IMG/VR virus record: IMGVR_UViG_3300031963_000715
Coordinates: 1 to 28,598 of that record
Length of the DNA stretch: 28,598 nt
Reading direction: 5' to 3' (one strand)
Source: a virus
Shown here: positions 9,863-28,598 of the stretch, piece after piece
Layout of the letters: every line of letters starts with the position of its first letter
Position numbering within the stretch: the stretch's first letter is position 1
The notes under the pieces: model-generated
What the model saw: the letters and a program-made list of their open reading frames with translations, nothing else
What the model was told of the DNA's origin: nothing
Database searches by the model: none
Translations under genes and position numbers: made by a program

Positions 9863-10243
9863 CTAAAATTCCAAGCTATTAACGATGGCTTCTCCGACGG
9901 CTTTTGTTACTAGTTTTAGTTCTTCGTGAGTGGCGTCATTTTTGATTGCATTGGCTCGATTGCTAATTATCCAAACGTTTCCTTTTACATAGCCACGTTC
10001 TGGATCAATGCGATCCAGGGAGGGGCTATTGGAGAGAGCACCATGTCCTACTCCACGTCGCAAGGACCATTCCAAGGGAACGTTAAAGATGGGGCAGTGC
10101 GAAGGGACTATTGAGCGAATATAAGGGAGGTCAATATCGAAGGGAAGATTTTTATTTTTTGCTCTTGATCTAGCCTTAGTGACCATACTTTTTGTTTGAC
10201 GCATCACTGGATTTTGGCGATCATATTCGTAGTCGTAATTCAT
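9863..10243 (-). CDS. HNH-type homing endonuclease
   Basis: A 126-residue basic protein on the minus strand. After a basic N terminus (KSMVTKARSRAKNKNLPF) it shows SHCPIFNVPLEW, then SPSLDRIDPERGYVKGNVWI and ISNRANAIKNDAT. LDRIDPxxGYxxGNV...NxxK is the signature of a beta-beta-alpha-metal phage HNH family related to endonuclease VII-like enzymes: D and the later N/H positions coordinate the metal. Such genes are usually selfish elements inserted next to conserved phage genes. It stands alone, opposite to its neighbours, inside a largely non-coding stretch. Confidence 0.75.
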   Translation of the reverse strand: MNYDYEYDRQNPVMRQTKSMVTKARSRAKNKNLPFDIDLPYIRSIVPSHCPIFNVPLEWSLRRGVGHGALSNSPSLDRIDPERGYVKGNVWIISNRANAIKNDATHEELKLVTKAVGEAIVNSLEF

Positions 10244-12643: not shown

Positions 12644-12668
12644 TTACTCTCTTACGGGAGAGTAAATT
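12641..12668 (+). other. Perfect 11-bp hairpin over the endonuclease start codon
   Basis: AATTTACTCTC (12641-12651), loop TTACGG, GAGAGTAAATT (12658-12668). The stem contains the GAGAG ribosome-binding-like sequence and the first two bases of the TTG start. It could either end the reductase transcript or hide the endonuclease start from ribosomes. Confidence 0.65.
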
Positions 12669-13029
12669 GCCAACCAACGAAGAGCTTGCTTGGTTTGCGG
12701 GATTGTTTGAGGGCGAAGGGTGGATCAGCGTTAGCTATCGCCACAATGCTTCCAAAACAAAACGCAAGCCTTATTACCTTATGGTCCGAATGTCCATCAA
12801 GATGACCGATTTGGATACCCTTGAGAAGGTTCACGCGCTATTCGGCGGTGGACTGGTATCAACGAAGGTTCCAGATAATCGCAAACCTTGCTGGACTTGG
12901 ACACTGGGAGACAAAATCAAATGTTCAACGCTTGGGCATCTGATGTTTCCTTATATGGGTCGGCGCAGGCAATTAAAGCTCTGTTCAATGTTTGACGCCA
13001 TCAACGATCACATTGACGAGTATTCATAA
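12667..13029 (+). CDS. LAGLIDADG homing endonuclease
   Basis: A 120-residue protein with a single LAGLIDADG-type helix at residues 6-17 (LAWFAGLFEGEGWIS), whose acidic residue binds the catalytic metal; single-motif members act as dimers. The rest, with DLDTLEKVHALFGGG, CWTWTLGDK and LKLCSMFDAINDH, is the usual alpha-beta scaffold. Homing enzymes cut a homologous site lacking the gene so as to copy themselves. It sits free-standing between the two reductase genes, a preferred site for such elements. Start is TTG 12667; there is no intron sequence that I can see. Confidence 0.85.
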   Translation: MPTNEELAWFAGLFEGEGWISVSYRHNASKTKRKPYYLMVRMSIKMTDLDTLEKVHALFGGGLVSTKVPDNRKPCWTWTLGDKIKCSTLGHLMFPYMGRRRQLKLCSMFDAINDHIDEYS

Positions 13030-17697: not shown

Positions 17698-19797
17698 ATG
17701 GAAAGCGAAGGAATTGATCTTGGTCACGTTGGCAGTGGCGGAGTGAGGGCTGATGGTCTCCAGAACGTGCTCATTGGCATGGGCACTGGTCGTGACAAGG
17801 CGCAATATACTAAAACTACAGCCACAGTATTTCTGGCACAAGAAGAACTAGAAAATCTTTATGGTGAATGGCTTCCTCGTCGCATTGTTGATATTTATGC
17901 TGACCAGGCCACTCGAAAAGGCTTCAAAGTATTGTTTGGTGGCGATGGCGTTAGGGCCGAAGAAGTGCAAGGAATTGAGCAAGTAATTGAAGACCTCTAC
18001 ATCCTCGAACATCTCAACCTCGCAGCGAAAAACTCCCGCCTTTATGGGGGTGCTTGCCTACTTCTTTTTATTGACGATGGGCGTCCCGCTTACATGCCTG
18101 TCGATAAACGTAATATACGTCGCGTCGAAGACATTGAATGTTTGGATAGATGGCAAATTGCTCCCGTTATCAACGAAGAAAACCTCTACGACTATTCAAA
18201 AGCCACTTATTATCAGATCATCTCTGGAGATTTAATTAACCAGCCACAATTGTCCTACATTCACAAGGATAGGATTCTTCGCTTTGACGGGGATTGGCTT
18301 CCTTATCGCATTCGGCAAAGGAACTATGGATGGGGCATGAGCAGCTTGCAGACTGTTTATGACAGCTTCAGGCATTATTGGACGGGATTGAATTCAGCGG
18401 CCACGCTTCTCACTGAGTTTGATATTTTTGTTCATAAAGTGAGGGGCCTGGCAGCGATGCTTGCTGCTGGCAAAGAAAGCTCCATTCGTGATCGCCTGCA
18501 GGTGAATGATATGAGCAAAAGCATTTATCGCGGCTACGCGATTGATGCGGAGAAAGAGGAGCTTGAATTTATTAGTCGCAACTTTGGTGGCATTGGAGAA
18601 ATCTTAGAAAAGCTGCGCGTTGATATTATTGGCGCCAGCAAGATTCCTCACACTGTTTTGTTTGGCGAAAGTCCGAGTGGTCTTGGTTCCACTGGTCGCA
18701 GCGAAGAACGTGACTTCGCAAAGATGCTTGCTGATTATCAAAGCGTCAATTTCAAGCGGCCGATGAAGAAGCTGCTTGAATACATCATGCTCAGCAAAGA
18801 AGGCCCGACGAAAGGAGAACTGCCCGAATCATGGCGCATCTCCTTTAATCCATTGTTCGAGCTTAATGAGCGCGAAATGGCTGACGTACGGGCGCGTGTG
18901 GCGGCTGTAGACGGCCGTTACATCCAGCTCGGTGTACTGAGTCCCAAGGAGGTGGCGGATGCCCGTTATAGCGGTTCTGAGTGGAGCATGGAGCTTACGC
19001 TTGATCCGTCCGTAGTGCGGGAACTTCCTGCTCAAGCTGGGGGTGGCTCCACTCAAGATGGGGGTGGGAAAGGCAAGCTTGCAGTGCCTCCTGGCGGCCG
19101 CGATCCCATGAATGAGGAGAACGGCACTCTTCCCATGGATGGAAGCAGGGAAGTAGAGGACAGCCGGGAGGATAGCGCTGGGCTTTATTTGCCTGGCGAT
19201 CTTGAGAAAGTGCGTGGCGACGTAAAATTCACGGACGAAGCATTGCATTCACGAGCAGTGAGTGCCGCCAAGGCTAAGTTCAAAGTGTGGCCTTCCGCCT
19301 ATGCCAGCGGTTACGTCGTACAACAGTACAAGCAAATGTACAAGAAGAAGCATGGCTCGCTGAGCGGAGCTTTCAAGAGCGACGAGCAGGAGCTTCATGC
19401 CGATGATCTTGATAAGTGGTTTAAGGAGAAATGGGTGAGGATTGGCGCTAATGGCGAAATCCTTGGTCCATGTGGTGCTCGCGAGGAAAAAGAAGGCAAG
19501 CCTAAATGCCTGCCGCAAGCCAAGGCGCAAGCCATGAGCAAAGAAGAGCGTCAAACAATTGTTGCTCGCAAACGCAAGGCCGATCCTGATCCCGAACGTA
19601 AAGGCCCAGCTAAGAATGTGAGCAGCAAAGTTGATGCAATGGAGCCCATGAAAGTCGAAGGCTTGATTCTTTCCGACCTTGACGAAGCCGCATTGATTAG
19701 CGCCGAGGATATCGACGCTGCATTGAATCAATGGAAGGAGGAAGCGCCTGAGCGTTTCAAGGATATTCTGGAGGCTGAAGATGCAAGGCCTGAATGA
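17698..19797 (+). CDS. Portal protein (DUF1073-like) with fused C-terminal domain
   Basis: A 699-residue portal, the ring through which DNA enters the head. Residues about 40-440 match the DUF1073 portal pattern: TATVFLAQEELENLYGEW near 42, RRIVDIYADQATRKGF near 60, a KNSRLYGGACLLL segment near 110, HKDRILRFDGDWLPYR near 190, IPHTVLFGESPSGLGSTG near 318 and FNPLFELNERE near 382. From about 515 a second unit begins: KAKFKVWPSAYASGYV, a tyrosine-rich helix, DDLDKWFKEKWVRIG and a basic lysine-rich end. This resembles the DUF5872-type module common in phage and giant-virus proteins, giving a length well above a plain portal. The final acidic tail overlaps the next gene by 17 bases. Confidence 0.85.
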   Translation: MESEGIDLGHVGSGGVRADGLQNVLIGMGTGRDKAQYTKTTATVFLAQEELENLYGEWLPRRIVDIYADQATRKGFKVLFGGDGVRAEEVQGIEQVIEDLYILEHLNLAAKNSRLYGGACLLLFIDDGRPAYMPVDKRNIRRVEDIECLDRWQIAPVINEENLYDYSKATYYQIISGDLINQPQLSYIHKDRILRFDGDWLPYRIRQRNYGWGMSSLQTVYDSFRHYWTGLNSAATLLTEFDIFVHKVRGLAAMLAAGKESSIRDRLQVNDMSKSIYRGYAIDAEKEELEFISRNFGGIGEILEKLRVDIIGASKIPHTVLFGESPSGLGSTGRSEERDFAKMLADYQSVNFKRPMKKLLEYIMLSKEGPTKGELPESWRISFNPLFELNEREMADVRARVAAVDGRYIQLGVLSPKEVADARYSGSEWSMELTLDPSVVRELPAQAGGGSTQDGGGKGKLAVPPGGRDPMNEENGTLPMDGSREVEDSREDSAGLYLPGDLEKVRGDVKFTDEALHSRAVSAAKAKFKVWPSAYASGYVVQQYKQMYKKKHGSLSGAFKSDEQELHADDLDKWFKEKWVRIGANGEILGPCGAREEKEGKPKCLPQAKAQAMSKEERQTIVARKRKADPDPERKGPAKNVSSKVDAMEPMKVEGLILSDLDEAALISAEDIDAALNQWKEEAPERFKDILEAEDARPE

Positions 19798-20464
19798 TTT
19801 ATCAACGTTCGCTGCCGCTCTTGAACAGCGCCTTGACCAATCCTCATGGCGCTACGATCCCGTTAGTGGCCGTTATCGCGGAAGTAACGGACGCTTCCTT
19901 AGTCAGTCTGCCGTTGAAGCTTTGGTTGATGGTCGAATTAACAAGCTTGGCACTTTGCTACGTCGTCTTACAAACATGCTTAGCAACGGCGATATTACGC
20001 TGGTTCAATGGCAAGAAAGCGTAAGAGAAGCACTTAAGCTTGCGCATGTACAAGCAGCGATCATCGGCAATGGTGGCAGGGACAATATGCAGGCTTCGGA
20101 TTGGGGCCGCATCGGTCAGCGCCTTCGTGCGGAATACCGTTATCTGGAGGGTTTTGCTCGCGATCTTCTGGCTGGGAGCATTTCTGCTCCCATGGCTATT
20201 GCTCGTATCGGCATGTATTCTCAAGCTGTGCGAGGTTCTTACTGGGAAGGCACCACAATTCGTCAGGAGAAGCAAGGGTATAGCTTGATGCGACGCATCC
20301 TCGATCCGCAGGCGAAGCATTGTGACGATTGCTTACGCTATGCAGGGCGAGGAGCTGTTCCCATTGGAAGTCTGCCTATGCCAGGCCAGCGGTGTGCTTG
20401 TATGTCCAATTGCAAATGCAGCGTAAAATACATGCGTCAACAAGCGCCAGTTGTGGCAGTGTGA
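19781..20464 (+). CDS. Head morphogenesis protein (SPP1 gp7 / Mu gpF-like)
   Basis: A 227-residue protein overlapping the portal end. The body is helical, with RLRAEYRYLEGFARDLLAG and ARIGMYSQAVRG; the end has HCDDCLRYAGRGAVP, then PGQRCACMSNCKCSV. The cysteine-rich ending (CxxC, then CxC, then CxC) matches the metal-binding C terminus of the SPP1 gp7 / Mu F head morphogenesis proteins, which bind the portal and help start capsid assembly. The gene position right after the portal is standard for this function. Confidence 0.75.
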   Translation: MQGLNDLSTFAAALEQRLDQSSWRYDPVSGRYRGSNGRFLSQSAVEALVDGRINKLGTLLRRLTNMLSNGDITLVQWQESVREALKLAHVQAAIIGNGGRDNMQASDWGRIGQRLRAEYRYLEGFARDLLAGSISAPMAIARIGMYSQAVRGSYWEGTTIRQEKQGYSLMRRILDPQAKHCDDCLRYAGRGAVPIGSLPMPGQRCACMSNCKCSVKYMRQQAPVVAV

Positions 20465-20466
20465 GC

Positions 20467-21192
20467 ATGGATGTTTTAGTTGGAAGCACTGGCCTGATTG
20501 GCAGAGTGTTGCGCGAGCATCATGACTTTGGCTACCTTTTCAATTCTGAAAACATTCATTTAGCACCGTCGCTGAAACAGGATATTGACAGGCTTTATTT
20601 GGCTTGTTTACCGGCGGAGAAGTGGAAGGCAAATCAAGCACCAATGGCCGATTTCGACAATATGTACTACGTCTTGACAAAAATGAGACTATGGAAGCCC
20701 AAGGAAATCATCCTTTATTCCACCATTGACATCTATAGTCAAACTTATAAATATGTGGAAAACTTTCCAGAAATCCATGGCATTAATTATGGATCCACAC
20801 GCTATATTTTTGAGCTGCTAGTTAAGGCCACATTCCCAGAAGCCGTAATTACCATCATTCGCCTCCCTGCATTGTTTCATAGGCGCATTAAGAAAAACAT
20901 TCTGTTTGATCTTCTCAATGGCAACAACATTGAAAAAATTAATGCCAATTCTTGTTACCAATGGTACGACTTAAAGGACTTATGGCTTCACACTGAAGCC
21001 TGTCAAAAAGGCGGAGAGCATCAATGGTTCTCTGAGCCTGTTGAAACTTTAGAGATTATTGACCGATGGTTTCCATGGGCGAAGACAGTCGTCGATTGTG
21101 GACCACGCATTGAATACAATTATGGGCCTTATTTTTCCAGTAAAGAAACCACTTTGAAAAAGATGGAGGCATTTATTAATGCTTGGAATTAG
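20467..21192 (+). CDS. SDR-type NAD-dependent sugar epimerase/dehydratase-like protein
   Basis: A 241-residue protein, start ATG 20467 two bases after the previous stop. DVLVGSTGLIGRVLREH at the N terminus is a Gly-rich NAD(P)-binding loop. EIILYSTIDIY near 80 is the serine/strand region of extended SDRs, and INYGSTRYIFE near 105 takes the place of the catalytic YxxxK; Arg replaces Lys here. The later VITIIRLPALFH fits the substrate domain. It could act on a nucleotide sugar, or have lost catalysis. It is the first gene of the sugar/glycan cassette and overlaps the next by 14 bases. Confidence 0.65.
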   Translation: MDVLVGSTGLIGRVLREHHDFGYLFNSENIHLAPSLKQDIDRLYLACLPAEKWKANQAPMADFDNMYYVLTKMRLWKPKEIILYSTIDIYSQTYKYVENFPEIHGINYGSTRYIFELLVKATFPEAVITIIRLPALFHRRIKKNILFDLLNGNNIEKINANSCYQWYDLKDLWLHTEACQKGGEHQWFSEPVETLEIIDRWFPWAKTVVDCGPRIEYNYGPYFSSKETTLKKMEAFINAWN

Positions 21193-21919
21193 TGCGATTG
21201 GCTGGAAAGATGAAGAAGAGCATGAAATCTTAAGCGCCAATGCCGGCGCTTTTAATTTCATTGAAATTGTTCCGTCTCGTATTTTTGCCAGAAACGAAGA
21301 CTTTGGCGATATTGCAAAGCGCTATCGAGAGCATTACGGGCTTTGGGCGTATTCTGCTCAGTCATTGTTCTATTACACCAACGTGGCAAGCTTTGAAGAC
21401 ACCGCCGCTACTTCGGAGCATTTGCTGCGTGTGATAAAGCTTGGCAGCACCATGGGCATCAAGCGCTTTGTCCTAGGCAGTCCTGCGTTGCGCAGAGGGA
21501 GTCCATCATGCCTGATGGAAGTATTGAAGCGGATGGACGCAGTATTGGATGCCAATGACGCCATTCTTTGCATCGAGCCAATTGCAAAAGTATTTGGCGG
21601 AAAGTATTTTCACACAGTTGAAGAGATTGTCAATCACATTGACTTCTATAACTTGCGCAATGTGAAGACAATGCTTGATACAAATAATGCTTGGCTGCAA
21701 GGAGATAGTCCCGTGAAAATCATCAAGCATTATTTTCGCTTCATTGCTCATGTGCATATTAGTGACACAGATAATGGTCCAATTCTCAATCAATATGAGC
21801 ACAAGCAAGTCAAACTCCTTCTAAATGCAAGCAGCTACGAAGGCGGCGTCACCCGTGAGCTGATTAATGCCAATCAGCACGATCGAGAATATCCGTTGTT
21901 TAGGCAGCTTTATGGCTAA
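21179..21919 (+). CDS. Sugar isomerase/epimerase-like TIM barrel
   Basis: A 246-residue protein of the xylose isomerase-like (AP endonuclease 2) family. FIEIVPSRIF is an early strand with Glu, ILCIEPIAKVFGG near 125 carries the second Glu, KTMLDTNNAW near 165 the Asp, and FIAHVHISDTDNGP near 195 the HxH-D cluster; these residues bind a divalent metal. Such enzymes isomerise keto and aldo sugars or inositol derivatives. Its length is on the short side but complete. It follows the SDR-type gene with a 14-base overlap and converges on the FAD gene. Confidence 0.75.
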   Translation: MLGISAIGWKDEEEHEILSANAGAFNFIEIVPSRIFARNEDFGDIAKRYREHYGLWAYSAQSLFYYTNVASFEDTAATSEHLLRVIKLGSTMGIKRFVLGSPALRRGSPSCLMEVLKRMDAVLDANDAILCIEPIAKVFGGKYFHTVEEIVNHIDFYNLRNVKTMLDTNNAWLQGDSPVKIIKHYFRFIAHVHISDTDNGPILNQYEHKQVKLLLNASSYEGGVTRELINANQHDREYPLFRQLYG

Positions 21920-21939
21920 GCAATAATTTGCTTAGCCAT
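21912..21939. terminator. 12-bp perfect stem at convergent gene ends
   Basis: ATGGCTAAGCAA (21912-21923), loop TAAT, TTGCTTAGCCAT (21928-21939). The plus-strand gene stops inside it (TAA 21917-21919) and the minus-strand gene ends at 21916, so both coding ends lie in a symmetric hairpin that could terminate in both directions. Flanking T-tracts are weak. Confidence 0.6.
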
Positions 21940-22863
21940 GCTTTCAATGGCATAGATACCCTGGATCTTGCCCGTGAAGAAAGAGAATAGATTTTCATCT
22001 TGACGCATCAATGGCGTGCGATTAGCGCTACAGTCTTTCGTCTTCGCTTTAATTGAAAGAGTGGGGAATAGATAGTCAAAGCTATCGGCAAAGTCTGGCC
22101 AATAACGTTCCACGTGTTGCTCAATTAATTGCCTTGCGTTGTCCGCATTGTCGAGCGAGTTATCGCTCATGACGCTATGCCTTACGTGACTCAATGAGAA
22201 GCATTTGTCGTTGTATGGATAGATGGAAAACAGTTCTCCATCTATATAGGTGAGGGCGCCGAACGGAAGAGGGGTTTTGGGGCGATAAATAAACATTGCC
22301 ACTGCTTCAAAGAAATGAGAGGGCAATGGCCCCAAGAGGGCATTGTTGGTGCAGTCGAAAACAAAATCGTAATCTTGCTTCAATGCTTGCAGATTGCATT
22401 GCTGAATTTTCTCTCTTTTGACCAATGGTTCTAGGCGCCATTGAAAATATAGGCTTGCCCCAATGGCATCAATGCGCTTTTCGGGAGTGGCCAGCAAAAG
22501 CGATGTGTGGTTAAAAGCTTGTGGATCTAGCTGTGCATGCGGACCACTCCCAAAAACAATTGAAATGGTTTCAGCATCAAGAAGGCTTTCATCTTCCGAC
22601 ACTGCGTAGTAATTATTCTCTACATCATGAACGAGATCGCCATAATCCTCCATGAAGCGCACAAAAGTGGTGGCGCACAATCGACGAGTGGCGGCATTCC
22701 TGGCGTAGTGGTAGCCGTAGTGCAGCCGATTCTGATTGATAAAAGACGTTTCTGAAATGAGCGTATGGTTCTTTTCGTACAGCGTCACCTCCGCCTCATC
22801 GCGAAAAGCCATTGCCAAATGGCATCCCACCCAGCCGCCACCAATAATTGCAATGCGCTTCAT
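21916..22863 (-). CDS. FAD-dependent oxidoreductase (DAO-type)
   Basis: A 315-residue flavoprotein. RIAIIGGGWVGCHLAMAF is the Rossmann GxGxxG loop for FAD near residue 4-20, VTLYEKNHTLISETSF contains the ribose-binding Glu, and INQNRLHYGYHYARN resembles the active-site segment of DAO family members seen in polysaccharide clusters. The segment YDFVFDCTNNALLG near 170 is the second FAD-contact strand. The closing GKIQGIYAIESMAKQ is typical of the last helix. It probably oxidises or rearranges a sugar or amino group; the substrate is unknown. It is coupled with the next minus gene by a 1-base overlap. Confidence 0.75.
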   Translation of the reverse strand: MKRIAIIGGGWVGCHLAMAFRDEAEVTLYEKNHTLISETSFINQNRLHYGYHYARNAATRRLCATTFVRFMEDYGDLVHDVENNYYAVSEDESLLDAETISIVFGSGPHAQLDPQAFNHTSLLLATPEKRIDAIGASLYFQWRLEPLVKREKIQQCNLQALKQDYDFVFDCTNNALLGPLPSHFFEAVAMFIYRPKTPLPFGALTYIDGELFSIYPYNDKCFSLSHVRHSVMSDNSLDNADNARQLIEQHVERYWPDFADSFDYLFPTLSIKAKTKDCSANRTPLMRQDENLFSFFTGKIQGIYAIESMAKQIIA

Positions 22864-23558
22864 CAGATGTCAATACAAAGGTGGGGCTGTACGCCTTGCC
22901 AATTGCTTTTGGCTTTGGCCAGTTCTAGCTGAGGGAAGTATTCGATACGACGCTGCATACCAGTGCCATAGGGATCTGCGTGCCCTTGATAGTTCCATTC
23001 GTCCGGGCCATGCTTGTCTGGATGATAGATGTGGCATGGTACGTCCTGAAGCTTCCAGAGCATATAGTCCTCGTTGGGAACGCCCCATTGCTTCCATCGC
23101 TGCAGCGCCTCTGGTGAGCTGTCTGTGTTCTTGATGGTCATCAAGCGCTCCTTGTGGGCCATGAGGTAGTCGTGGCGATAAAGACCGATGCTCATGGAGG
23201 GCGTGTGCTTCATTGCCACTTTCTCTGGCGCCTCCACTGGCGGTTCGTAAGCGAGCTGTCTGAACGTGGGGCCTGCAATGCAAGTGTCGTGTAGGAGAAA
23301 CCAATAGGGACTCTCCATTGAATGCTCAACAATCTCAATGAGCGGCGTGTATTCAAAGGAATTTTGCTGCGTCAGCAGCATTGGCACACCTTTGTAGCTG
23401 GTAAAAGCCCTGACGGTTTGCCCTCCATTGACAATCAAAATCTCCTCTGGCTTCAGGCCAGCAGCAAGCAAACTAGGGATAATGACGGGAATAGTATGCG
23501 GAGCAAACTTCTTGCACGTACTAATACAAAAGCGAATTGAGCCTTCTGGAATTGTCAT
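22863..23558 (-). CDS. Glycosyltransferase-like hypothetical protein
   Basis: A 231-residue protein. The start, SIRFCISTCKKFAPHTIPV followed by EEILIVNGGQ, looks like the first strand-helix-strand of a GT-A nucleotide-sugar fold, and PYWFLLHDTCIAGP near 92 gives a D in a position where GT-A enzymes carry a DxD-like motif (here HDTC). GVPNEDYMLWKLQ and HIYHPDKHGPDEW near the end may hold a second metal or acceptor site. I cannot assign a GT family. The context, a minus-strand pair within the glycan cassette, supports but does not prove a sugar-transfer function. Confidence 0.45.
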   Translation of the reverse strand: MTIPEGSIRFCISTCKKFAPHTIPVIIPSLLAAGLKPEEILIVNGGQTVRAFTSYKGVPMLLTQQNSFEYTPLIEIVEHSMESPYWFLLHDTCIAGPTFRQLAYEPPVEAPEKVAMKHTPSMSIGLYRHDYLMAHKERLMTIKNTDSSPEALQRWKQWGVPNEDYMLWKLQDVPCHIYHPDKHGPDEWNYQGHADPYGTGMQRRIEYFPQLELAKAKSNWQGVQPHLCIDI

Positions 23559-23578
23559 TATTTGCGCTGCGTGTCATG

Positions 23579-23587
23579 TGTTACAAT
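23579..23587 (+). promoter_or_regulatory. Extended -10-like promoter element
   Basis: TGTTACAAT (23579-23587) has a TG dinucleotide one base before TACAAT, as in extended -10 promoters. It lies in the divergent gap before the HNH and glycosyltransferase genes; no good -35 is seen. Confidence 0.35.
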
Positions 23588-23604
23588 GAGGTGGACTAGC
23601 GAGT

Positions 23605-24159
23605 TTGCCGCTCCTAGTCCGTGATCAACTCACCCAGAATGAGCCGATGCTGCACTGTAAACCACTTCCTCCGCTTTGTCGGATTCGACATCTTCTTGCG
23701 TTGAGAAAAGATGGAATCTTGATCTGGAAAAGACCCACCAGTAACAGGGTGCGCCCAGGTCAAGTGGCAGGACGATGGAACAAGGGCTACAGAGTGGTAA
23801 GTATCGACGGGCATAGCTATGGTATTCATCGAATCGTTTGGGCTCTGTCAAATGGGATGGATCCTGGCGACCTTGAAATAGACCACAAAAATGGAAACCC
23901 GTCTGATAATCGCCCTTGCAATTTAAGAGCGTGCACCAGGCAGCAGAACACGTTAAACGTCAAGATGAGATCGGACAACACGAGTGGTGCAAGGGGAGTC
24001 TCTTTCGATCCTTCGTCAATCAAAAATCCTTGGAGGGCATATATTCGCAGTAAAAGACTTGGTAGATTTCCAAGCAGAGAAGCCGCTATGGACGCATTGT
24101 TGAAGGCTGTTAGACGCGATCAAGACCTGGCTTTTTACTACAAAGAAAAGACGGACTAA
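23605..24159 (+). CDS. HNH homing endonuclease with AP2-like DNA-binding domain
   Basis: A protein of about 170-184 residues. The HNH core reads YRVVSIDGHSYGIHRIVWAL, then EIDHKNGNPSDNRPCNLR and TRQQNTLNV: His in DGHSYGIHR, Asp-His in IDHKNG and Asn in DNRxxNLR/QNTLN are the metal and catalytic set. The C-terminal part, SGARGVSFDPSS...WRAYIRSKRLGRFPSREAA, is an AP2-type DNA-binding domain. HNH-AP2 proteins are mobile genes of phages. It sits between the minus-strand pair and the GT4 gene. Start uncertain: TTG 23605, or ATG 23647, which trims a non-conserved N terminus. Confidence 0.8.
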   Translation: MPLLVRDQLTQNEPMLHCKPLPPLCRIRHLLALRKDGILIWKRPTSNRVRPGQVAGRWNKGYRVVSIDGHSYGIHRIVWALSNGMDPGDLEIDHKNGNPSDNRPCNLRACTRQQNTLNVKMRSDNTSGARGVSFDPSSIKNPWRAYIRSKRLGRFPSREAAMDALLKAVRRDQDLAFYYKEKTD

Positions 24160-24174
24160 GATTGCGGGAGTCTT

Positions 24175-25407
24175 GTGATTCCTATGAAAAAGATTCTCTA
24201 CGCAGGCGACGTCGGAGTACAAACGGGATTTGGGCGAGTTGCCGAGTACCTAATTCCAGCGCTCGCGGAGGAATATGAAGTACATGCGTTATGCACCAAC
24301 TGGCACGGAGACCCTTCTCCTATGCAGCAGCATTGCAAAATGTATCCAGCAATGGCGCATGGGAATGATCCTTTTGGGTCTCATCGTATTGCGAGCGTAA
24401 TTCAAGCAATAAAGCCGGATCTGGTATGGATTACAAACGACATCTGGATTGCATTGAGTCTATGGGAAAATGCCAAGCCACTTAGGGAGAAGCTTGGCTT
24501 CAAATGGTTTGTGTACACTCCTATTGATTCGTATGGATTGTTCCCAAATCTCACTCCCCCAATGATGGAATGGGACGGCTTGGCCACTTACACCAAATTT
24601 GCTAAAAAAGAACTAGAGATCATGGGTTATACAAAGCCCATTCGCATTATCGGTCACGGCACTGACTTCACCAAATTCTTCCCGATGGACAAGAAGGAGT
24701 GTCGAAAGATCTTGGGAGTACCGGACGATGTGTTTGTTGTCTTTAACGGAAACAGAAATCAACCCAGAAAGCGCATTGACCTGACGATTAAAGCCTTTAT
24801 CAAGTTTGCCAAGGACAAAGATGATGCTCGCCTTTGGTTGAACATGGGAGCAAAAGATCTTGGCTGGCCAATCATTGATCTCTTCAAGCGAGTGGCTCGC
24901 GATGAAGGTTTTGATGCCACTGGCAAGCTTATTTTGACAAGCCCGCACTATTCAGTGGACAATTGTCTTCCCATTGAACAACTTAATCAAGTGTATAACG
25001 CTGCTGATATTGGCATTAACACTTGCATTGGCGAAGGATGGGGCCTGGTCAACTCGGAGCACGGTGCCACTGGCGTGGCGCAAGTGGTTCCTGATCATAC
25101 GAGCTTGGCTGAAATCTTTGATGAGATGCCTCGCATTGAATGCAATGCCAGTGAAACCGACAGAAACTATGGGCTTGAGCGATTATTGCCAGACCCTGAG
25201 TGCGCCGCCGATATCCTCACTTATTACTATGAGAATCGCGACATTTTGAAGCAGCATGGTCAATGGTGCTATAACCGTCTCCATGAAGAGCCCTTTACTT
25301 GGCCCTATATTCAGCAGCAGCTCAAGGATGCAGTGAATGAAACACTAGCTGTCAAGCCTGCGGAGCCTGAATTTAAAGGCTTTGGCACTCCCGCAAAAAT
25401 CGCCTGA
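24175..25407 (+). CDS. Glycosyltransferase family 4 (GT-B)
   Basis: A 410-residue GT-B enzyme. The N-terminal domain starts KKILYAGDVGVQTGFGRV, a Gly-rich loop for the acceptor side. The C-terminal domain has VVFNGNRNQPRKRIDLTIKA near 190, the family's conserved RKxxDLxIxAF region, and INTCIGEGWGLVNSEHGA near 285, the E-x7-E motif (E in GEGWG and in NSEHG) that holds the nucleotide sugar. It would transfer a sugar from an NDP-sugar onto a glycan, lipid or protein. Start is GTG 24175, with GGGAG four bases away, or ATG 24184, which is more conserved but farther from that site. It is the first of three transferase-type genes on +. Confidence 0.85.
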   Translation: MIPMKKILYAGDVGVQTGFGRVAEYLIPALAEEYEVHALCTNWHGDPSPMQQHCKMYPAMAHGNDPFGSHRIASVIQAIKPDLVWITNDIWIALSLWENAKPLREKLGFKWFVYTPIDSYGLFPNLTPPMMEWDGLATYTKFAKKELEIMGYTKPIRIIGHGTDFTKFFPMDKKECRKILGVPDDVFVVFNGNRNQPRKRIDLTIKAFIKFAKDKDDARLWLNMGAKDLGWPIIDLFKRVARDEGFDATGKLILTSPHYSVDNCLPIEQLNQVYNAADIGINTCIGEGWGLVNSEHGATGVAQVVPDHTSLAEIFDEMPRIECNASETDRNYGLERLLPDPECAADILTYYYENRDILKQHGQWCYNRLHEEPFTWPYIQQQLKDAVNETLAVKPAEPEFKGFGTPAKIA

Positions 25408-25412
25408 TCGCC

Positions 25413-26129
25413 ATGCAGATTTCACAAATCTTTCTTTCCACTGATCCAACGGAAGAGCTGAGCCCATTTCTTAAGCACGCCACTGGCACCATTGATGCGT
25501 GCTTCCCCAGTGCGGAGCATGTCATTTACAGCGACGCTTCACTGCGTGCTTTTATTGCGGAAAACTATGGGGAAGAAGTGGCGTGGGCATATGATTGCCT
25601 GGTGCCATTTTCTTACAAAGCAGATCTTGGGCGGTTTTGCTTGTTAAACAAACTTGGTGGCTGGTATTTTGATATTGGCGTGAGGGCTTTCAATGCAGTG
25701 GATCTTGGCGACCGCATTGAATTCTTGGCGTTCCGCGATATTCAACGCTTTAGTTATACCAGTTGGGCGTGTGCCACGACTGTACTCTATTCCAAGCCTG
25801 ATAACAAGGCTTTGCAGACTGCCATTGAAATGATTGTGGCAAATTGCAAAGAGCAATACTATGGCATCACGCCACTGTGCCCCACTGGCCCAACGCTATT
25901 AGGCAAGGCGCTTGCTTTCAATGGAAGCCAGGCTAATTTTGTCTATGGCGACTATCTGGAACTCACTCCCACGTATGGTCAAAAGAACAGAGGGTTTGTC
26001 TTGCCTGATGGTACGATCATGGCTTGGAGCAAGCCCGCAGGAGGTGGGGACCTTACGGGCTTGGGGGCTAAAGGCGTGAACAATTACAACGAGCTTTGGG
26101 CAGCGAGGAAAGTGTATGCAGCCGTCTGA
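25413..26129 (+). CDS. GT32-like glycosyltransferase with altered DxD
   Basis: A 238-residue GT-A protein. SAEHVIYSDASLRAF is the early segment, and SYKADLGRFCLLNKLGGWYF followed by DIGV near 70-90 is the hallmark of the GT32 family, where AxxSDxxRxxxLxxxGGxYxDxD carries the sugar-nucleotide and metal contacts. Here the final DxD reads DIG, so the second Asp is missing. SWACATTVLYSKPDN and PTGPTLLG also fit the family. It may use the remaining Asp or have weak activity. It follows the GT4 gene by five bases and overlaps the DUF4422 gene by 14. Confidence 0.7.
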   Translation: MQISQIFLSTDPTEELSPFLKHATGTIDACFPSAEHVIYSDASLRAFIAENYGEEVAWAYDCLVPFSYKADLGRFCLLNKLGGWYFDIGVRAFNAVDLGDRIEFLAFRDIQRFSYTSWACATTVLYSKPDNKALQTAIEMIVANCKEQYYGITPLCPTGPTLLGKALAFNGSQANFVYGDYLELTPTYGQKNRGFVLPDGTIMAWSKPAGGGDLTGLGAKGVNNYNELWAARKVYAAV

Positions 26130-26832
26130 CTACACAATTTATGCCGTGTGCATTCCTGGCGAGAAAGTGCGCTATGAAGCCCGCTCTTCCATTGTTCCCA
26201 TTATGGGAGGAGCGTATGCCTTATCGAGCGAGGAGCGTGAAGCGCTCCGCTTGCAGGGCTATGTGTTTGATGATGAGAATGCTTCCCTTTCGCGGCTTAA
26301 TAGCCGATGGGGAGAGCTGTCTTGTATTTCTTGGATGATTCTCAATGCGAATGAGAAAAACATTGGCAATGCGCAATACAGGCGCAATTGGCTAGAGCCA
26401 AATGATCAATGGTACGACGAAAATACGTTGTATTTTCCCGAGCCTGCACTGTTCAATTGCACGCTGGAGCAGCAGTTTTATGGTGGACATTCAGCTTTTG
26501 ACGCTCCTGTTATCACTAGAGAACTTGCCGATTCCGGGAGTTGGATTTTCTCTCGCGAAGAAATTGATGCCATTTGGAAGCAAAATAGCTTTATTGGCTG
26601 CAATATGGCACGAGGAGGCAACGTGCAATACAAGCAATTCATGAGCGCTCTGTTTGTCGCGCTTGCTCCCATTTGGCATAAGCACGAAGAGCAGTTTCTT
26701 CGTATTGGAGGCTATGACAAGCGAGCGTTGGCCTTTATTGCTGAGCGTCTCATCACTGGCATGGTTTTGTATCGTGACAAGCTTTTCCCTGGCATGAACA
26801 TTGCCACTGCTCCGATAGGATTCATCCATTGA
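26116..26832 (+). CDS. DUF4422 protein (capsular polysaccharide biosynthesis type)
   Basis: A 238-residue protein. SSIVPIMGGAYALSSEERE, then DDENASLSRLNSRWGELSCI, then NIGNAQYRRNWLEP match the DUF4422 order of G-x-A, D-x-x-N-x-S-x-x-N, E-L-(T/S) and (G)x-x-Y-R-R found in O-antigen and capsule gene clusters. The domain is predicted to be a glycosyltransferase-type enzyme, though its reaction is not firmly known. The rest is helical with an SAFDAPVITREL loop. It ends the glycan cassette, directly before the head genes resume. Confidence 0.75.
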   Translation: MQPSDYTIYAVCIPGEKVRYEARSSIVPIMGGAYALSSEEREALRLQGYVFDDENASLSRLNSRWGELSCISWMILNANEKNIGNAQYRRNWLEPNDQWYDENTLYFPEPALFNCTLEQQFYGGHSAFDAPVITRELADSGSWIFSREEIDAIWKQNSFIGCNMARGGNVQYKQFMSALFVALAPIWHKHEEQFLRIGGYDKRALAFIAERLITGMVLYRDKLFPGMNIATAPIGFIH

Positions 26833-26859
26833 TTATGCTTAAGGAAAGCATTTAGCGTT

Positions 26860-27120
26860 ATGACCAAGAAGGAAAAGCAGGCAAAAATTGCCAAGGTGAT
26901 GCGCGAATACAAAAGTGGCAAGCTAAAGAGCAGCAGTGGCGAGGCAGTGAAGAGCCCGAAGCAGGCACTAGCAATTGCCTTGTCCGAAGCTGGCATGACG
27001 CGCAAGCCGAAAGAAGACATGAGCGACGAATACTACATGGGATTCTTTAAGCAGATGATTGGCGAAGAGGAAGAAGAAGAGGAAGAAGAAATGGATGGGA
27101 GCTGCGGAAAAAAGCGCTGA
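26860..27120 (+). CDS. DUF6496-type protein, zero-frame product of a frameshift cassette
   Basis: An 86-residue basic protein. KIAKVMREYKSGKLKSSSGE followed by AVKSPKQALAIALSEAG is the DUF6496 signature seen in phage structural gene clusters. It ends with a very acidic run (nine Glu) and DGSCGKKR. Its last three sense codons are GGA AAA AAG CGC before TGA, so the heptamer A AAA AAG lies just before the stop, followed by a hairpin. Thus it is the short product of a likely -1 frameshift pair whose long product continues into 27467. Its role is unknown; location suggests a head or scaffold component. Confidence 0.8.
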   Translation: MTKKEKQAKIAKVMREYKSGKLKSSSGEAVKSPKQALAIALSEAGMTRKPKEDMSDEYYMGFFKQMIGEEEEEEEEEMDGSCGKKR

Positions 27121-27147
27121 GGGGAGACGCTGAGAGTTTCTCCCCTC
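27097..27147 (+). promoter_or_regulatory. Programmed -1 frameshift signal (slippery heptamer and hairpin)
   Basis: Slippery A AAA AAG at 27108-27114 in the reading frame of the 26860 gene. A perfect 9-bp stem follows, GAGGGGAGA (27119-27127) with TCTCCCCTC (27139-27147) and an 11-base loop, starting four bases after the heptamer. GGGAG at 27097-27101 is a Shine-Dalgarno-like stimulator six bases upstream of the heptamer. The layout is that of E. coli dnaX. Confidence 0.75.
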
Positions 27148-27467
27148 CCGCCGCCGTGCGAAGTGCTGCCCGTCGAGGGTTGGAACTGCGCAAGAAGCAC
27201 GGCAAGGGCGGCTTAACAACGCAGGAGGCAGGCAAACAAGGTATTGGTAGCGGCGTTGCCAGGGCTGGTGATTTGGCTGGTGGCAGCAAGATTAGCTATG
27301 CCACAATCAAGCGTATGTCTGCATTCTTCTCTCGCCATGAGAAGAATAAAAGCGGTGGAGAGAACGATGCCGGATATATTGCTTGGTTGTTATGGGGAGG
27401 AGATGCCGGGAGGGCATGGGCTAAACGCATCATTAAGATGGTAGAAAGTCGTAATACAGGCCAATGA
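27108..27467 (+). CDS. C-terminal domain reached by -1 frameshift (phage structural module)
   Basis: From the slip site the -1 frame is open to TGA 27465-27467 with no ATG near the beginning. It reads KKALRGDAESFSPPAAVRSA and then AARRGLELRKKHGKGG, the start of a known phage module, followed by SGVARAGDLAGG, ISYATIKRMSAFFSRHE and AGYIAWLLWGGDAGRAWAKR. This unit is often found fused to other phage structural proteins. The module's conserved SPPAAVRSAARRG lies partly upstream of the only local start candidate (GTG 27156), which supports expression as an extension of the DUF6496 protein. The fused protein would be about 203 residues. Confidence 0.75.
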   Translation, partial: KKALRGDAESFSPPAAVRSAARRGLELRKKHGKGGLTTQEAGKQGIGSGVARAGDLAGGSKISYATIKRMSAFFSRHEKNKSGGENDAGYIAWLLWGGDAGRAWAKRIIKMVESRNTGQ

Positions 27468-27778
27468 GCGAATACGTGCGCGTCATCGAGCAAGAAGATG
27501 AAGGTATTGGCGTGATGCAGGCTTTGGCCATTCTTTCTGCTAACGAACACCGCAATACTTCGCGATGGGAACTAGTGGAGAAGCAATGCTTCAAGAATGG
27601 CCGCCTTGACGAAACTCACATCTATGTGATGAGCGTCTACGAAAAGCCCGACCCTCATTTCGATCCGACTAAGTTTCTTACGTTTGAAATTGAGGCAATG
27701 GCGAAGTCATACATCATGGAAAACATTGAAGATCAGCTTCGCGAGATTCGCGGAGAAGATGACGACGACGAGGATTAA
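27464..27778 (+). CDS. Small acidic hypothetical protein
   Basis: A 104-residue protein starting in the previous stop (ATGA). It has a beta-like core (SRWELVEKQCFKNGRL, THIYVMSVYEKPDPHF) followed by a helix (FEIEAMAKSYIMENIEDQL) and a very acidic end of DDDDED type. No family recognised. It converges with the XRE gene; the two coding ends overlap by four bases. Confidence 0.65.
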   Translation: MSEYVRVIEQEDEGIGVMQALAILSANEHRNTSRWELVEKQCFKNGRLDETHIYVMSVYEKPDPHFDPTKFLTFEIEAMAKSYIMENIEDQLREIRGEDDDDED

Positions 27779-28059
27779 TCTCTTCGCGTGTTGAGAATGA
27801 ACGAGGGGTAGCCCATCAGCCACAATACGCTTATTCCATAAAGACCACTGAGAGTGCGAATTTGCACGCAATCCGGAGCCAGTTCAGCGCGTTCCATTCG
27901 TGAATAGGAGCTTTGGCTTGTATGCAAAGCTTGAGCTACGTCCTTCTGAGAAAGCCCGCTATTAAGGCGGGCTTCTTTAATGCGAGAAGCAATCAGGAGA
28001 CGAGCTTGCTGATGAGGCATCTTAAGCACATCCACGTCGCTTTTCTTGAGCAGCAGCAT
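27775..28059 (-). CDS. XRE-type helix-turn-helix regulator
   Basis: A 94-residue transcription regulator. RIKEARLNSGLSQKDVAQAL followed by HTSQSSYSRMERAELAP is a classic Cro/C1-type HTH (first helix, turn at GLSQKDVA, recognition helix TSQSSYSRMERG-like), and CVQIRTLSGLYGISVLWLMG is the last helix of the domain. I chose ATG 28059; ATG 28020 would still keep the domain. It is divergent from the prohead protease gene, and the gap holds two palindromes, so it probably represses its own promoter and that of the head operon. An HTH regulator in the structural region is unusual. Confidence 0.8.
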   Translation of the reverse strand: MLLLKKSDVDVLKMPHQQARLLIASRIKEARLNSGLSQKDVAQALHTSQSSYSRMERAELAPDCVQIRTLSGLYGISVLWLMGYPSFILNTRRD

Positions 28060-28064
28060 TTTTC

Positions 28065-28100
28065 TATTCAGTCCTGAATAACTGTTTCTATAATAAACAG
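28065..28100. promoter_or_regulatory. Paired palindromic operators and promoter in the divergent gap
   Basis: TATTCAG-TC-CTGAATA (28065-28080) and CTGTTT-N7-AAACAG (28082-28100). The second palindrome contains TATAAT (28089-28094), a -10 box pointing to the protease gene, with TTCAGT 16 bases upstream as a weak -35. The two sites lie between the XRE gene and the head gene, as expected for operators of that regulator. Confidence 0.6.
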
Positions 28101-28122: not shown

Positions 28123-28598
28123 ATGAGCACCACATCTTGTCGCTACGATTTCTCTCCCATCGAGAAATATGAGGTGACGCCTGAAGGTTATCTTCGGGCA
28201 TGGGCCTCTATTGCTCGCACTGGCATTCAGCTCTACACAGATGCTGATGGCTCCGTGCGTCGCGAATACAGGCCTGAAACAGAAGTGGCTTCTCCCGATA
28301 GTCTTGCTTCCTTTGCGGGCAAGGCAATCACTTCTGAGCATCCTCCCGTCCTTCTTGATGCCGAAAATACTAAAGACTACCAAGTAGGATTTAGCGGCAC
28401 TGAAGTGGTGTACGACAATGGTTTTGTCAAGGCTGTGATGACAATCACTGACCAAGACACCATTGAGCGCATCATGCGTGGCGATGCTCGTGAGGTAAGC
28501 GCTGGCTATAGGGTTAATTATGATCCTACGCCTGGCGTTACTGACGGTGGTGAACATTACGATGGCATCCAAAAGGAAATCCTTGGTAATCACATCGC
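28123..28598 (+). CDS. DUF2213 prohead protease, N-terminal part
   Basis: The gene starts at ATG 28123 and runs off the window; 158 full codons are visible. EKYEVTPEGYLRAWASIART followed by GIQLY is the DUF2213 opening (xTxEGxLxxxAxIARTGxQxY). FAGKAITSEHPPVLLD carries the conserved His and EVSAGYRVNY the conserved Ser of this serine protease-like family, which trims capsid and scaffold proteins during head maturation. It continues the structural module interrupted by the glycan cassette. The missing C terminus may hold a fused domain. Confidence 0.85.
   Translation, partial: MSTTSCRYDFSPIEKYEVTPEGYLRAWASIARTGIQLYTDADGSVRREYRPETEVASPDSLASFAGKAITSEHPPVLLDAENTKDYQVGFSGTEVVYDNGFVKAVMTITDQDTIERIMRGDAREVSAGYRVNYDPTPGVTDGGEHYDGIQKEILGNHI

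Follow-up and report, generated by a model that had tools for sequence, protein, structure and literature searches.

Frameshift-decoded genes in phages

The frameshift site of the bacteriophage lambda genes G/GT is the heptamer G GGA AAG, and the signal of Escherichia coli dnaX includes a downstream stem and an upstream Shine-Dalgarno element, the shift there giving the shorter product. For lambda gpG/gpGT, some ribosomes move into the -1 frame close to the 3' end of a small gene and so make a rarer, C-terminally extended form. In the head or coat genes of Lactobacillus phage A2 (major head protein), phages T3/T7 (major coat protein) and Listeria phages PSA, A118 and A500, frameshifting likewise places a C-terminal extension on part of the gene product (PMC5009743). 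The dnaX heptamer is A AAA AAG, and X XXA AAG sites in general are shift-prone in E. coli, where the tRNAs re-pair one base back (PMC5009743). All 64 heptamers of the X_XXY_YYZ pattern have been tested in E. coli. With stimulators, the most efficient were C_CC.A_AA.G, G_GG.A_AA.G and A_AA.A_AA.G, and frameshift efficiency for such motifs reaches 54% with a strong pseudoknot (Sharma et al., PMC4066793).

We describe a phage locus at which a programmed -1 ribosomal frameshift very probably joins a DUF6496 protein to a second domain, referred to here as D2. Compared with lambda G/GT, the proteins are different, the gene lies upstream of the head protease gene, a covarying stem stands directly downstream of the slippery site, and some lineages carry the two domains in frame. 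The base protein in A2, T3/T7 and PSA/A118/A500 is a major coat or capsid protein, whereas here it is a small DUF6496 protein of no known function; none of the matches seen relates D2 to the Ig-like extensions of coat-protein frameshifts. A preliminary description of the locus had called the arrangement dnaX-type. This suits the signal but not its outcome, since shifting here would make the longer product, as it does for lambda G/GT and the coat-protein extensions, and in dnaX makes the shorter, and the upstream Shine-Dalgarno-like element of dnaX has no conserved counterpart. An orthologous pair, gp018/gp019, is present in the isolate Synechococcus phage S-CBS4, which has the same heptamer, stem and gene order as our sequence. 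Its record lists them as two hypothetical proteins and notes no frameshift, a split that would hide the fusion and give D2 a doubtful start.

Literature searches returned no papers for DUF6496 and none for programmed frameshift with cyanophage. Those returned for ribosomal frameshift with cyanophage include none on DUF6496-D2 by title: PMC12846349 concerns a tail-assembly chaperone, and in the accessible text of PMC6375957 the match is only a reference. The accessible parts of PMC3751600 and PMC6157547 do not mention frameshifting. Judged by titles, then, the searchable literature, in which the S-CBS4 genome paper was not among the papers returned, holds no description of a DUF6496-D2 frameshift. 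The mechanism itself, C-terminal extension by phage frameshifting, is known (PMC5009743), and the DUF6496-D2 gene pair appears to be new to it. If so, the pair would add to the phage genes decoded by -1 frameshifting, in S-CBS4-related phages and in many metagenome samples.

Layout of the DUF6496-D2 site

The window, meaning the whole stretch of DNA analysed, is a linear virus record of 28,598 bases in which Pfam and PHROG profile searches find terminase, portal and head-protease genes. The features at the site are as follows.

26860..27120, + strand: DUF6496 (PF20106) ORF in the 0 frame, giving the short product; 86 aa with an acidic C-terminal tail; Pfam E 5.6e-9, 36.7 bits against a gathering cut-off of 24
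27097..27101, + strand: GGGAG, putative upstream Shine-Dalgarno-like stimulator
27108..27114, + strand: slippery heptamer A AAA AAG (GG[A AAA AAG]); its register relative to ORF 26860-27120 is X_XXY_YYZ
27114..27467, + strand: -1 frame comprising a linker and domain D2; 117 codons, stop at 27465-27467; phrog_2859, E 1e-16
27118..27120, + strand: 0-frame stop TGA, 3 nt past the heptamer with one codon between
27119..27127, + strand: 5' arm of the stem, GAGGGGAGA; conserved core 27120-27127
27139..27147, + strand: 3' arm of the stem, TCTCCCCTC; conserved core 27139-27146
27464..27778, + strand: next gene, 104 aa, its ATG overlapping the D2 stop (ATGA)
28123..28598, + strand: DUF2213/head maturation protease gene, cut by the window end; Pfam 3.6e-35, phrog_530 2.2e-56

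The DUF6496 gene ends in GGA AAA AAG CGC TGA. Starting 4 nt past the heptamer, GAGGGGAGA and TCTCCCCTC form a perfect 9-bp stem (27119-27147) around an 11-nt loop. The preliminary description had reported the heptamer in register, this stem, the 4-nt gap and GGGAG, and on direct reading all of its coordinates are correct. From the heptamer on, the -1 frame stays open up to 27467, so that 85 codons in the DUF6496 frame and the 117 that follow would encode a fusion of 202 aa. D2 matches positions 164-265 of the 740 in phrog_2859, a shared region only, the model being far longer than D2.

In the proposed mechanism, most ribosomes would read DUF6496 and halt at 27118-27120, releasing the 86-aa protein. 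The hairpin at 27120-27146 would stall a fraction of them while the P site covers AAA (27109-27111) and the A site AAG (27112-27114). The two tRNAs would then slip back by one base and pair again, and reading would continue in the -1 frame through D2 to 27467, producing the 202-aa DUF6496-D2 fusion. That ribosomes slip here in the host, and how frequently, is an inference.

Within the window alone the statistics are unremarkable, and the case therefore rests on a comparison of loci. AAAAAAG occurs five times against 9.5 expected by chance on both strands, and a 61-nt local fold is only mildly better than its shuffles (z = -1.45). Related loci were taken from four IMG/VR scans (in each the best 80, out of 374, 528, 389 and 426 candidates, with much overlap) and from S-CBS4, so the sample represents the nearest relatives of four queries and not the whole family. 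Removal of identical stretches left 134 loci, some still near-copies; three are cut before DUF6496, leaving 131 with both domains. By profile-based assignment, D2 lies in the -1 frame relative to DUF6496 in 109 of these, forms an in-frame fusion in 20 and is in the third frame in two. The D2 tree holds 133 of the 134 loci (L200 was left out), so that traits were counted on it over 108 frameshift loci.

The two loci in neither frame, L111 and L136, have a one-base indel at the junction relative to near-identical frameshift sisters (L117 for the former, L108/L121/L131 for the latter), and are likely, though unproved, to be assembly errors or broken copies. Together with L057, probably of the same kind, they resemble the single-base variants expected if the whole arrangement were decay or sequencing error, that is, an ancestral in-frame fusion broken by an indel. 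There is next to no chance that this accounts for the locus: conservation excludes it, as 109 non-identical loci, one of them in an isolate genome, have D2 at one and the same offset, use one of three heptamers and carry a covarying stem, and the D2 frame remains open and conserved.

Conservation of the slippery heptamer

An X XXA AAG heptamer stands at the identical site in all 109 loci that need a -1 shift (A AAA AAG in 84, G GGA AAG in 22, C CCA AAG in three), and in each of them, as in the window, it lies in the X_XXY_YYZ register of the 0 frame. The 0-frame stop begins 3 nt past the heptamer in 101 loci, immediately after it (0 nt) in seven and 42 nt past it in one. The X triplet is exchanged as a block, and the D2 tree requires no fewer than 14 such exchanges. 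The three heptamers found are exactly the top three in E. coli (PMC4066793), which we count as support for frameshifting. The comparison of related phages proposed in the preliminary description thus bears out its central claim that a -1 frameshift joins DUF6496 to the second domain. It also bears out the conservation of heptamer, spacer and stem, the form of the stem being qualified below. Selection has kept the signal across about 130 relatives.

Both products could also come from transcriptional slippage, in which RNA polymerase inserts or skips an A while copying the run, leaving a mixture of mRNAs. At least six A stand at 84 of the 109 sites, and a few loci (L024 and L044, for example) have seven or eight. 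The other 25 sites, however, read GGGAAAG or CCCAAAG, whose three A exclude slippage on a long A run, and a covarying downstream stem and a conserved register would be expected of ribosomal slippage instead. We regard the polymerase explanation as extremely improbable.

Two minor features concern the DUF6496 side of the junction. An extra basic motif (like EARCKGYLSSLRKRRKK) lies between the acidic tail and the slippery site in the DUF6496 proteins of L082, L044, L077, L067 and others, and is absent in the window. In L129 (361-2007), whose heptamer is C CCA AAG, no stop separates the DUF6496 frame from an upstream ORF that by eye is radical-SAM-like, giving 548 aa from the first ATG; DUF6496 may there be fused to that ORF, or be internally started.

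The downstream stem

The preliminary description's 9-bp stem at a 4-nt gap is present in the window, and pairing is conserved, but in a slightly shorter form. What is conserved is an 8-bp core (27120-27127 with 27139-27146; columns 13-20 with 32-39 of alignment A2), 5 nt past the heptamer. The outermost pair, 27119-27147, fails in 46 of the 109 loci, in 39 of those by an A, as a TAA stop gives. Across 98 distinct rows, 97.7% of the 784 cells are paired, against 92.4% with partners shuffled (0/500 as high) and 57.7-70.5% with one arm slid. Both sides have changed in 46 cells, a figure reached by 0/500 shuffles, and these double changes are confined to two of the eight pairs. A conserved and covarying structure at this short spacing is a putative stimulator of the shift.

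In the key covarying pair, the wobble position of a Gly codon faces the first position of a Ser/Ala codon, so that an amino-acid change tracks a silent change in Gly. The pair reads C-G in 46 loci, A-T in 44, T-G in six and G-T in two, and is mismatched in 11 of the 109 (C-T in eight, T-T in three). About 5.5 of six independent well-supported pairs on the tree change in the same direction and none in the opposite one (median p about 0.03, range 0.03-0.125, with only six pairs). The Arg codon in the 5' arm is AGG in 109/109 frameshift loci against 6/20 in-frame loci (p 2e-14, uncorrected for phylogeny), and at other conserved Arg codons of the same protein, codons 16, 20, 21 and 26, AGG is used in 13/97, 1/109, 0/109 and 1/109 loci, respectively.

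The GGGAG that had been put forward as an upstream stimulator does not share this conservation. It occurs at the window's spacing in 13 of the 109 loci, and a GGAG/GAGG-like core lies 5-18 nt upstream of the heptamer in 55; the Glu-rich tail alone could yield such cores. An inner pairing in the hairpin loop appears in the window fold and is absent from the consensus fold, and is not claimed here. A search of positions 26800-27500 against Rfam gave no matches up to E 1.

The D2 frame and its start

From near the junction onward the D2 frame is kept at the protein level with synonymous variation, as expected of coding sequence. In the window it is without an ATG ahead of the conserved domain, as the preliminary description had noted, and this extends to the relatives: between the upstream stop and the Val codon at 27156, the D2 frame lacks ATG in every one of the 109 loci, and in 53 it lacks GTG and TTG as well. 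The first listed start in the window is the GTG at 27156 itself, already within the conserved part.

D2 might nonetheless be a separate gene that starts at a non-ATG codon, such as this GTG, and is translationally coupled to the DUF6496 stop. The annotation of S-CBS4 as gp018 and gp019 accords with that, and GTG does occupy the Val codon in the window and in 32 others of the 109. Elsewhere, though, the codon is GTA (49), GTT (25) or GTC (2), and the 53 loci without any candidate start up to it contradict the proposal. A start at the Val codon would moreover remove the conserved residues LRGDAESFSPP that precede it, and would leave the heptamer, the fixed AGG codon and the in-frame fusions unexplained. 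We therefore consider an independent start highly improbable.

For comparison, 160 distant D2 relatives without a DUF6496 match were inspected. In 154 of them the D2 frame contains an ATG no later than 20 codons into the match; contig ends truncate the other six. Under a stricter limit near the Val codon, 149 of the 154 complete relatives have an ATG. In four of the five exceptions the match begins late (model position 18 to 31), where this limit is rough, and each of the five has an ATG no more than 20 codons into the match or earlier.

Natural in-frame fusions

In 20 loci DUF6496 and D2 are read as a single ORF (L078 is cut at the contig end). For these loci stops were counted from where the profile envelope begins, which lies upstream of the first Met, and the unbroken frame to D2 was read separately for each locus. 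The heptamer X XXA AAG is absent near the junction in 19 of the 20. The exception, L057, is counted as in-frame, has one A more in the run than similar frameshift loci and keeps the stem, and its in-frame state may be an error. The stem-loop region has a median MFE of -5.0 kcal/mol in the in-frame loci and -16.4 kcal/mol in the frameshift loci (Mann-Whitney p 2e-11, uncorrected for phylogeny). Some in-frame loci retain arm pairing (8/8 bases in two, 7/8 in eight of the 20), so the stem is not lost everywhere the shift is unneeded.

Both downstream genes have homologues at in-frame and frameshift loci, which are therefore the same locus. Where enough sequence is available, the 104-aa gene has a homologue immediately downstream in 108/108 frameshift and in 20/20 in-frame loci, and the DUF2213 protease has one in 100/100 and 18/18. 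On the D2 tree the frameshift and in-frame states change at least 10 times, four of the changes being forced by well-supported branches; L171 (frameshift) and L167 (in-frame) are close neighbours there. No locus was seen in which the two genes stand apart without the signal, a pattern that the preliminary description had held to count against a frameshift. The loci lacking the signal are the in-frame fusions, save the one-base variants L111 and L136.

A frameshift is thus favoured because the signal is conserved, X is replaced as a block, the stem covaries, D2 is coding, ATG is absent and in-frame fusions occur. Three interchangeable heptamers, a stem that overrides codon choice and natural in-frame controls make an unusually complete case for sequence alone. 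Since in-frame lineages exist, two products, or an excess of the short form, are not universally needed, and the fusions imply that the fixed two-product ratio suggested in the preliminary description would not be required in every lineage. A second copy of DUF6496, which might supply the short product in in-frame phages, was not found in 36 records searched, each of which has one match. Of these records 21 are from in-frame loci, and all of the 21 but one of 49 kb are fragments of 4-21 kb, so that the absence carries little weight. The in-frame relatives allow the purpose of the two-product state to be asked about, and the cultured S-CBS4 makes a direct test possible.

Genomic context and the possible role of D2

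DUF6496-D2, the 104-aa gene and the DUF2213 protease gene follow one another in this order wherever a locus extends far enough, and in S-CBS4 gp018/gp019 lie between the portal and head maturation protease genes. D2 also occurs in other phage proteins. It is N-terminal to the XkdF-like protease of Limnohabitans phage DC31, N-terminal in the protease/capsid polyprotein of Roseobacter phage CRP-811, and N-terminal in a polyprotein of Synechococcus phage S-CBS1, in which the Pfam protease match is below the cut-off and phrog_4523 (major head and protease protein) matches. It further lies inside the portal-MuF protein of HRTV-28 and inside the annotated prohead protease of HGTV-1. Because these phages join D2 to a prohead protease, a protease-capsid polyprotein or a portal protein, D2 appears to be a phage-head module. 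The names of structure neighbours in BFVD include prohead protease, XkdF and portal protein, among others.

No function was read from the fold, as fold searches gave no convincing match. The predicted model of a natural in-frame fusion has a mean pLDDT of 84.7. A sequence search of the PDB returned one chain (E 0.25), Foldseek against the PDB gave no matches at E <= 0.001 (best E 4.4), and the best VIA-align Z was 3.7, with no chains at Z >= 5; its lambda-repressor-like rows are weak (Z about 2.5) and were not used. A pattern-limited search of one-genome-per-species contigs from 84,980 species found one relative of D2, in a Gemmatimonadetes MAG contig, and no cyanobacterial prophage with D2. 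The Gemmatimonadetes copy lies within a 768-aa ORF, which is closely followed by an ORF that by eye is portal-like.

Gene order and the proteins that D2 joins elsewhere point to a structural protein. We propose that DUF6496-D2 probably acts in head assembly with DUF6496 in excess. D2 would be carried as an extension by only some of the DUF6496 molecules, whose gene lies a short way upstream of the head protease. More speculatively, the site could act as a switch that sets the stoichiometry of a mobile head module: D2, which is elsewhere fused to protease, capsid or portal, would here be dosed in trans by way of a frameshift on DUF6496, with lineages repeatedly flipping between a dosed (frameshift) and an undosed (in-frame) state. 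We offer this tentatively and lean against it; were it true, the dose of a head protein would be an evolving trait readable from sequence.

The frameshift could be real and the pair a tail-assembly chaperone of the G/GT type rather than head-associated. The logic of a short and a rarer extended form is the same, and G GGA AAG, the lambda G/GT heptamer, is found in 22 loci. Gene position makes such a role unlikely. The 104-aa gene is next in 128/128 loci and the head protease follows in 118/118 with enough sequence, and the S-CBS4 pair sits between portal and protease genes, not directly before the tape-measure gene, where a tail-assembly chaperone gene is found. The relatives of D2 are joined to protease, capsid and portal proteins, neither Pfam nor PHROG gave a match to a tail-chaperone family, and no solved structure of any kind matched convincingly. 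We give a tail role very little probability, and favour a head-associated pair.

Several neighbouring genes of the window were also noted. The portal protein (17698-19797) is extended at its C terminus by a DUF5872 domain (Pfam, residues 512-622), another small domain of uncharacterised function on a head protein. Carbohydrate-related genes occupy 20329-26832, between the portal and head-protease genes, and include a DUF4422 protein (Pfam) and an ORF that by eye resembles a glycosyltransferase. Glycosyltransferases are annotated at the equivalent place in S-CBS4, and homologues of the carbohydrate genes lie upstream in 53 and 59 of 89 frameshift loci, whose flanks are short so that absences carry little weight. 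At about 27775-28077 on the minus strand, opposite the structural genes and just before the head protease, an ORF resembles by eye a helix-turn-helix repressor; a transcriptional repressor is annotated at the equivalent place in S-CBS4. Three ORFs, at 9863-10243 (minus strand), 12667-13029 (plus strand) and 23605-24159 (plus strand), appear by eye to be homing-endonuclease-like, of the HNH or LAGLIDADG type, and one of them adjoins ORFs that by eye are ribonucleotide-reductase-like.
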